From Doris montereyensis (lineage: Eukaryota; Mollusca; Gastropoda; Nudibranchia; Dorididae), in the NCBI GenBank assembly GCA_037039925.1, contig JAXRKP010000017.1, positions 163,501 to 227,500 of the forward strand: a stretch of DNA of 64,000 bases, given 5' to 3'. Every line of letters starts with the position of its first letter. Within the stretch, counting starts at the first letter, position 1. The notes under the pieces are model-generated. The model worked only from the letters and a program-made list of their open reading frames with translations. It had not been told where the DNA came from and did no database searches. The position numbers and the translations under genes are program-made. This document shows, piece by piece, positions 57,201 through 60,200 of the stretch.

Positions 57201-60200
57201 AGTTCTACACTATTTGCTTGCTTGAGTCGAAACATGGTCAAAATAACAAGTCAAAAATCATTTAGAGAGCTGGCAGTACTTTCAAGGTCTATGAAATTGC
57301 AAAAACATGTTAAAAAAAACAAGAAAAATAAAGTCAAAACTCATGGGAGGAGCATCCGATGGACTGAAAATGAAAAATGCATCAAAATTTCTACCACAAT
57401 GCTTGCCAGAGGCAAAGGGGGAGGAAGACAGCAGATGGAAGATGGGAAAGAAACAGACACAGAAAACCGAGCAGGACTTGGACAATGGGATTCAAAAGTA
57501 AAATGCTTAATTTCTCATTGAAATTTATTTGAAAGAAAAGAATTTTCTTCATTCCCATGTGAGAGTTTACAGCATAAATGCCAAGGAAAGAAAAGGTATG
57601 TAGAGTCATATTCCAACAAGAAAGACTTTGAATAAATGATGACCAAAACAATAAAGTAAAAAACCCAAAGCAAATAAAAAAGTGACAAATAGGAAGAAGG
57701 TGAAGAAAACACGAAGAAAAGGACACATCAGACCTACTACGTAACAATTAAATTCTGTTGAGATGTCAATCCAACAGATGACAGAAATTGAAATTGAGTA
57801 AAGATGTTGTGGAAAGTTCATCCAACTCAAAACGGCCCCCAACCAACATTAATAACACGTGTAACATCAAAAAAAGACCATGGGACAACAACAACAAAAA
57901 ACACCCTACATTCCTGCCCAAAATTGTTCTCTCTTTGACTAGGTTACTGCATCGTCTAACCCCCCCCCCCCGCCATTTTCTTTAATTTGATTTTTGAACA
58001 ATTTAAAAAAAAAAAAGACTTCAGTGATATTTAAAAGCACTATTCAAAGTCAAAGGAAATCATTGTTAATTTTAAATTTAAAAGGTCACACCGCTGAAAT
58101 ACTTGAATGACAGAACAAAAAATTTAAAAAAAGGAGAATTCCAGTCTTAACAGAACGGAGAAAAAAAATGTGATGATTACATGTTTGGATGATGACTTAA
58201 AAATGAAGCCAACACAAATTTAATGACAACACAAGAGAATATATAAACAATATGATATATTATATCAACCTGTATATATTGACTAGTCGACAGGAAATGG
58301 TCCGAAAATAATGAAACATGAAAAAAGTGTTAAAAATGTGATGGAAATTGGTAAAGGGCATCAAATAAAAAATTTAAAAATGTGACAGTGCTATACAAAT
58401 GGTGATGTATATATATGTATATGAAAACACTGATATATTTATAACTATATGAATAAAGAAGTAAAAATAAAATGTATTATGTTGATATTAAGTGGTTTTT
58501 GTGAAGGAAAAGAAAAACATGAAAAAGCAAAAGAATTAAATGCCAAAGACAAAATAACTAGAAATAATGTAAGACTATTGGACAAAAAAAGAGAGGGGAA
58601 AGTGAAAACTCATTCAAATTATGTGGCTGTTTGTGATACTGACATGGGTCTTCATCACTTAAAGCTAGTCTTAAAGGAAGGAACCTTACCTGATCTGTTG
58701 GCAACAATCCAAAATCTTCGGAGGATTTGTTATAACGTAACGTTTTGAGGATGGACTTCGAACAGATTCATTTGTGTCTCTGAATCGATACAGACCGATG
58801 CACAAAATGCCAAAATGGCGTAATGCATACACAAACAATTCTCCATAGCGACCATTTTGCTGTGAAAAGAAAAAAGAGTCAATAATACCTGCTAGGAAAA
58901 AAAGAGTGTAACAGCCCTGATGACAAGAAAAAAAAACAAATACGCGTACATAGCAGTGGGCAAGCTTCATAAGCGTTTTTAATAAATCAGGCACAATTGC
59001 ATCAATGATACTTCCAGATATTCCTTCTTTCATTTGAGTAGTATGAATAGGAATCTATTTAATAATGATAGCTTCTGTAACTTGGGGAGTGAGTTGTTAA
59101 CTGGAGACACTCAATTAAGTCTAAAGTAAGCTGAGCCGACAGATGTGTTTTTGATATAGAGTGTGAATCCAAAAATTGTATAAGCTGGAAAAGAGATACC
59201 AATGGAAGAAGAATTTAAACTGGGTAATTACATACATTACACAGAGAGAGAGGCTTTCAAATGAATTATTACATACTCCAAACTGGGAGAAAGAGTCATT
59301 CAAATGGATTACTCCATACTCCAAACTGAGAGAGGCCTTCAAATGGATTATTACATACCACGAACTCAGAGAGAGGCCTTCAAAGGGACTATTACATACC
59401 ACAAACTAAGAGAGGCCTTCAAATGGATTATTACATACCAAAAACTAAGAGAGGCCTTCAAAGGGGTTGTTACATACCCCAAACTAAGAGAGAGGCCTTC
59501 AAATGGATTATTACATACCAAAAACTAAGAGAGAGGCCTTCAAAGGGATTGTTACATATCACAAACTAAGAGAGAGCCCTTCAAATGGATTATTACATAC
59601 CACAAACTAAGACTGAGAGAGCCCTTCAAAGGGATTATTACATACCCTAACACAAGAGGTTTGCCTTAAAATGGATAATTAAATACCGCATATTGAAAGA
59701 GAGTCCTTCAAATATATCATTACATACCCCAAATTGAGAAAGAGGCCCTTCAAACAAGGTAACCTGTGAGACTCGACATCGATCCCTGTTAGCCAAAACA
59801 GCAGGAGAACAGTAACCACCTCTCATACCAGCCCCTTCTGCCAGAATCTGCTCTAGTTCTGGCGTTGCACCACCAGTAATTAGAGTCCTGATCAAGGTCA
59901 AGGCATTGTCGTTGAAGTAGCTCTGTAAGAAGAATGCAAAAACACATGACAACAGTGTAATAAGAAATGGGCTACAAACAGTCTTGAAGATAACGAAATG
60001 TTTGGCAAAGTGTTAATTTTACTATGCGGCACATTTTCAGGTTAAAAACCTTCTAATAAAAAAAAAAACAAAGCATTTGTTGTTGAGAAAAGCTGAATAA
60101 AGCCTTGGAATTATCTGGAGGTAAAATACATGATTCATCAGGATTGCAGTCTAAACATGTAGGCCTACAATTCAGAACATAGGTATCATTCAGTCTTATA

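Follow-up and report, generated by a model that had tools for sequence, protein, structure and literature searches.

The end of an exon of slo, the BK-channel gene, forms together with its 5′ splice site the first unit of a minisatellite in Doris montereyensis. Within the window, by which we mean the whole 64,000-nucleotide stretch analysed here, 13 head-to-tail units, the number that a preliminary description of this DNA had proposed, run on the minus strand from 59754 to ~59220. With a probability of roughly 70%, we read the array as a tolerated, lineage-specific minisatellite that was seeded at the slo exon end and that causes at most low-level leakage of splicing.

The slo gene and its donor-containing units

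The pair of exons on either side of the array matches BK-channel structures (phmmer, best E 5.9e-69). Among the matches listed, slo of Aplysia californica comes nearest, with 95% identity across 91% of the 151 compared residues, and other gastropods rank behind it; together with tblastn of Aplysia slo, this bears out the gene identity given earlier. Using Aplysia and Elysia slo as tblastn queries, slo exons were found from 93.9 kb (window numbering, past the window) down to 51.2 kb. The array begins in an exon of 195 nt (exon A; 59728..59922, minus strand; SYFNDN...FEGPLSQFG), which follows ttcttacag and was identified by phmmer and by tblastn with Aplysia P0001, its boundaries being taken from the sequence. 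The next exon (QNGRYGELF...; 58688..58859, minus strand; tblastn) shows an apparent frame break after ITNPP, and the intron in between measures 868 nt. Two candidate terminal exons, VYVLTYKPI and AFCLQPF, lie further downstream. The former (56820..56855, minus strand) is a stop-ended ORF with a weak tblastn match to P0009 of Elysia marginata (E 0.074; 12 of 13 residues, four of them before the AG), and the latter (51163..51249, minus strand) matches P0001 (Aplysia) and P0008 (Elysia chlorotica) at E 4e-8; both boundaries were set from the sequence. The two candidates match different tails, P0009 on the one hand and P0001 and P0008 on the other.

Homologues support an exon end at FEGPLSQFG|GTATGT, with the putative true donor at 59722..59727 (minus strand). 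Among the longer homologues (the best 120 of 8000 scored, many of them isoforms of few species), 115 were parsed and 114 of these share identical spacing across the junction, P0018 being one residue shorter; of the five unparsed sequences, two are without the anchor motif, and the junction of the other three is of the same kind. These spliced homologues continue as in Doris (FG|Q..YG). The short homologues (120 listed of 355 matches) include 77 exon read-through ORFs that run out of the exon at the same residue; at the junction they have V, which a GT donor in this phase requires. P0124, also a read-through ORF, has I at this position, which does not fit a GT donor. Judged by homology, the end of exon A is correctly placed, in agreement with the preliminary description, and the boundary is old.

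TRF reported a single array (59245-59754, period 41, 12.4 copies, 80% matches), which unit cutting resolved into 13 minus-strand units. Unit 0 (59713..59754) consists of the 27 coding bases (FEGPLSQFG) that close the exon and 15 intronic bases, namely the GTATGT donor at 59727 and nine further bases. The remaining 12 units extend into the intron, and GTATGT is intact in nine of them as well as in unit 0. Intact copies are found in unit 2 (59631..59671, GTATGT at 59645), unit 3 (59586..59630, at 59600), units 5-8 (59385..59544, at 59518, 59477, 59438 and 59399), unit 9 (59344..59384, at 59358) and units 11-12 (59221..59304, at 59276 and 59235, both weak by U1 pairing as they have no G at -1). 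The hexamer is altered to a weak GTATTT at 59686 in unit 1 (59672..59712), to ATATGT, with loss of the GT, in unit 4 (59545..59585) and to a weak GTATGG at 59319 in unit 10 (59305..59343). The earlier count of 12 further copies, nine of them intact, is thereby reproduced, and the 39-45-bp spacing then given holds as unit length for units 0-11, the far end of unit 12 being approximate.

The exonic part of unit 0 is itself a member of the array. Compared with the consensus of units 3-11, its 27 bases score 28, which was reached by none of 2000 shuffles and by no tile among the 14,074 taken from the rest of the window (top tile 26), so that the similarity is beyond chance and the earlier claim of a unit holding exon end, donor and first intron bases stands. 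The unit core TTTGAAGGNCTCTCT (at most two mismatches) has 11 matches in the window, all 11 inside the array, whereas 100 shuffles gave a mean of 0.73 and a maximum of 4 matches for TTTGAAGGNCTCTCT. A guessed 30-mer pattern gave no match, as no unit has exactly that sequence. Units 3-9 are mutually 80-95% alike, the most diverged units are those at both ends of the array, and unit ends alternate between CCA and CCC across units 1-9. Despite this alternation, a dimer repeat could not be established, as mean unit identity at lag 2 (0.837) is hardly above that at lag 1 (0.822).

Could the array be an artefact of a noisy assembly? Relative to Aplysia, the reading frame is interrupted by one or a few bases in five slo exons, and the assembly consensus therefore probably holds indel errors. 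However, each of the 13 units has a sequence of its own, whereas copies created by an artefact would more probably be almost the same; the divergence of the end units and the CCA/CCC alternation likewise speak against this explanation, which we regard as extremely improbable. The frame breaks themselves lie at 58690-58735, 61390-61425 and 62335-62375 of the window and, past it, near 86455-86500 and 88845-88880 (window numbering), in exons whose flanking residues are well conserved relative to Aplysia and Elysia slo. They are most likely assembly consensus errors rather than signs of a dead gene. In the 513-Mb assembly, the array DNA has one match in a search that omits simple repeats and very common words, and a protein search finds the slo exons in one place. 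Neither search revealed a second allele or a paralogue with another copy number in these 513 Mb, and the single match also speaks against a dispersed repeat or transposon.

Predicted donor strength and its consequences

To compare the intronic copies with the true donor, we calculated U1 pairing energy in a fixed register. The true donor (dG -8.1) is tied only by unit 6. Unit 2 follows at -7.8 and units 3, 5, 7, 8 and 9 at -6.9, so that seven of the 12 intronic copies reach -6.9 or better; units 1, 10, 11 and 12 pair weakly (-1.2 to -4.4) and unit 4 has no GT. For reference, we used 13 other homology-placed donors of slo. Of 15 exon ends, 12 were used, 93767 was added with an uncertain boundary, 88788 was left out for want of a clear GT and the fifteenth is the array donor itself. 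These donors range from -0.7 to -11.5, and 11 of the 13 are weaker than -6.9. By predicted U1 pairing, the seven decoys (-6.9 to -8.1) would thus be comparable to real slo donors, and because they exceed 11 of the 13 others, it cannot be taken for granted that splicing keeps to the first donor.

Reading through the true donor at 59727 leaves 26 open codons until a TAG at 59649-59647 (minus strand), just before the GTATGT at 59645-59640, exactly as first described. In the two remaining frames, stops follow after 15 codons and 1 codon, and a small assembly indel would therefore still leave an early stop. Used as donors, all 12 repeat positions, including unit 4 with its lost GT, predict an early stop. 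The preliminary description had named the TAG as the truncation point for any downstream donor; this is right for units 2-12, but use of unit 1, 41 nt further on, would cause a frameshift with a stop in the next exon. A truncated channel is hence predicted throughout, but Aplysia slo has 91 residues past the junction, not the ~100 given before. When a further exon junction lies downstream of an early stop, mRNA decay is expected.

These predictions raise the question of whether the array works as a ladder of splice sites, in which measurable use of downstream donors would yield early-stop transcripts and the array would set the share of productive BK mRNA through decay or truncated channels. 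Both the pairing energies and the early stop at every position would suit such a function, and there are precedents in human genes: IFI6 employs two downstream repeat units as donors (PMC4526556), and ABCA7 shows retention of one unit as well as skipping of the next exon, exon 19, which rises with VNTR length, although one-unit retention itself does not change with array length (PMC5954066). By plain consensus, however, the decoys are middling. The score is 6 of 9 positions for the true donor and for eight decoys, and ~7% of the 3426 GTs on the window minus strand reach or exceed it; the 13 other slo donors comprise three with a score of 8, seven with 6 and three with less. Also speaking against a ladder, no decoy-type tail was found among the 120 listed short ORFs (of 355); this negative is weak, because no identical slo transcript of the source animal is among the listed homologues. 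As the readable relatives in addition carry no repeat (see below), our analysis makes a functional ladder unlikely.

Sequence conservation and RNA structure were also examined. The GTATGT columns are on average 96% conserved across units compared with 99% for the TTTGAA block, and selection on the donor hexamer is thus unsupported. The array RNA folds with a z-score of +1.0, 85 of 100 shuffles doing equally well or better, and the decoys are no less open than the true donor, so that this ordinary fold lends no support to a structure hiding the decoys or favouring one site.

Eight of the 12 intronic units carry, in addition to the donor motif, a pyrimidine tract and an AG exactly 6 nt before GTATG, and in inner units this AG corresponds to the Gln codon of LSQFG. 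Splicing into and out of the same unit would therefore add one in-frame dipeptide (FV, FL or FG). Inner units could in this way act as splicing cassettes, that is, as poison donors that double as harmless microexons or stepping stones for stepwise removal of the intron, tunable by copy number. In recursive splicing, a 3′ splice site abuts a regenerated 5′ splice site. The eight units resemble recursive sites and microexons in having tract and AG shortly before a donor, but differ from recursive sites in the 6-nt gap, none of the AGs listed being adjacent to a GT, and in tracts weaker than most real slo acceptors (9-11 of 16 pyrimidines compared with 11-15 in 12 acceptors drawn from 17 exon starts looked at). 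Ten pyrimidines are reached by 24% of YAGs on the window minus strand. We rejected a recursive splicing ladder for the lack of adjacency between AG and GT and consider cassettes of any such kind highly improbable.

The array might also act independently of its donors, as a platform of 16 overlapping CUCUCU sites from which polypyrimidine-binding proteins would act on this intron or on the choice of terminal exon. Such a role would draw on the preference of PTB for sites of this type. CTCTCT occurs 29.7 times per kb in the array compared with 2.5 per kb on the window minus strand, and two possible terminal exons lie downstream. In C. elegans, TCTCTCT is among the intronic motifs enriched near multiple splicing decisions (PMC4039745). 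Nonetheless, the tract is explicable by the coding sequence that seeded the array (L-S-Q codons), and the absence of the repeat from readable relatives weighs here as well, which leaves a binding platform distinctly improbable.

Probable origin in a minisatellite-rich genome

The preliminary description had suggested looking at the same intron in related species. Among the 120 listed of 355 matches, 78 are read-through ORFs whose tails extend into the intron, and F[ED]G, which would signal a second copy, was absent from all 78. Of these tails, 55 have at least 10 residues and could show such a copy, and the other 235 matches lie beyond the 120 listed; as tails end at the first stop codon, the comparison is limited to what they cover. 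As far as seen, readable relatives have no repeat, and the array appears to be local to one lineage.

Minisatellites are common in this part of the genome. Arrays with a period of at least 20 and at least four copies make up 6.6% of a 177-kb sample of the same contig (27 distinct arrays) and 5.8% of the 103 kb around slo. Five such arrays lie in these 103 kb, and only the donor array overlaps any of the 18 homology-placed exon pieces. With minisatellites this frequent, it is not very unlikely that one should catch an exon edge. Several other arrays were seen along the way. A 53-bp array of ~5 copies (L013:7268-7521, minus strand) has GTATGT in each unit and TTTGCAG in some. Another slo intron holds a 30-bp minisatellite of ~20 copies (87359-87946 in window numbering, past the window), ~160 bases upstream of an exon piece beginning near 87195 on the minus strand. 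A 4-kb minisatellite of ~44-bp units occupies 109001-112975 (window numbering, past the window), and within the window a TGCTGCTGTTGTTGC repeat (15 bp by 8) lies at 25166-25294.

We favour a model in which a piece of ~41 bp, reaching from the end of exon A across its donor, would have been duplicated in tandem, seeding a minisatellite that then grew within the intron. Growth would have proceeded from exon to intron, because the exonic part belongs to the conserved coding sequence of slo and the repeat is missing from readable relatives. In a genome rich in minisatellites, the array would be a by-product that is tolerated: the first donor, which is the joint-best U1 match in the array and closes a 195-nt exon, would carry nearly all splicing, and neighbouring copies would leak at a low level into early-stop transcripts. 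Here we infer both that the first donor prevails and that little leakage occurs. Loss of the GT in only one of 12 decoys counts against this model, since more loss might be expected if decoys were harmful. The preliminary description had left open whether the array is a regulatory device or a tolerated hazard. The gene and exon end it named, the anatomy of the array and the consequence it predicted for decoy use hold up, but neither a device nor a hazard in practice is established, with donor columns no better conserved than TTTGAA, repeat-free relatives and minisatellites common all around.

Comparison with known donor-spanning repeats

With the slo array, a single exon of a conserved channel is naturally followed by many similar 5′ splice sites in competition. 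It bears on how the spliceosome picks among donors and on whether the number of splice-site copies acts as a dial or is a neutral load. Should exon ends commonly seed arrays in minisatellite-rich genomes, they could be counted genome-wide.

Minisatellites that span a donor are already known from human IFI6 and ABCA7, and the phenomenon is not new. As in these genes, the slo array includes a donor of functional type, its position being indicated by homologues, and repeats the motif, intact in nine of 12 copies. The repeat unit of IFI6 is 12 bp compared with ~41 bp in slo. Repeats of the IFI6 (6-16) minisatellite serve as splice donors (Turri et al. 1995, as cited in PMC4526556 and PMC3618361). 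In both genes the minisatellite supplies several donors, in slo by prediction; according to these citing texts, use of downstream repeats is established in IFI6 and gives extra mRNA species, whereas the slo alternatives are all predicted to truncate the protein.

Repeats at exon boundaries have also been surveyed more broadly. Internal tandem repeats at exon-intron boundaries in human segmental duplications are, like the slo array, of minisatellite size, and alter splicing there (PMC2812944), but they belong to recent human paralogues rather than to one copy of a conserved mollusc gene. A survey in C. elegans, in which slo-1 is cited as a model gene, associates multiple splicing decisions with an intronic minisatellite and with TCTCTCT motifs; its available text makes no mention of a donor array (PMC4039745). 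In open-licence literature on minisatellites with BK channel or slo-1, we found no published report of the slo array.

ABCA7 offers a parallel in its intron 18, where a 25-bp VNTR begins with the exon 18 donor. There too the array includes a functional donor, and splicing at the donor of the next unit, as when one unit is retained, leads to a frameshift and an early stop (PMC5954066). The ABCA7 array is, in the available account, polymorphic and measured in RNA, whereas that of slo is known from the sequence of one assembly. The slo array differs in its place in a conserved ion channel of a mollusc and in the make-up of its unit: whereas the ABCA7 unit starts at the donor GT, that of slo also takes in 27 coding bases.
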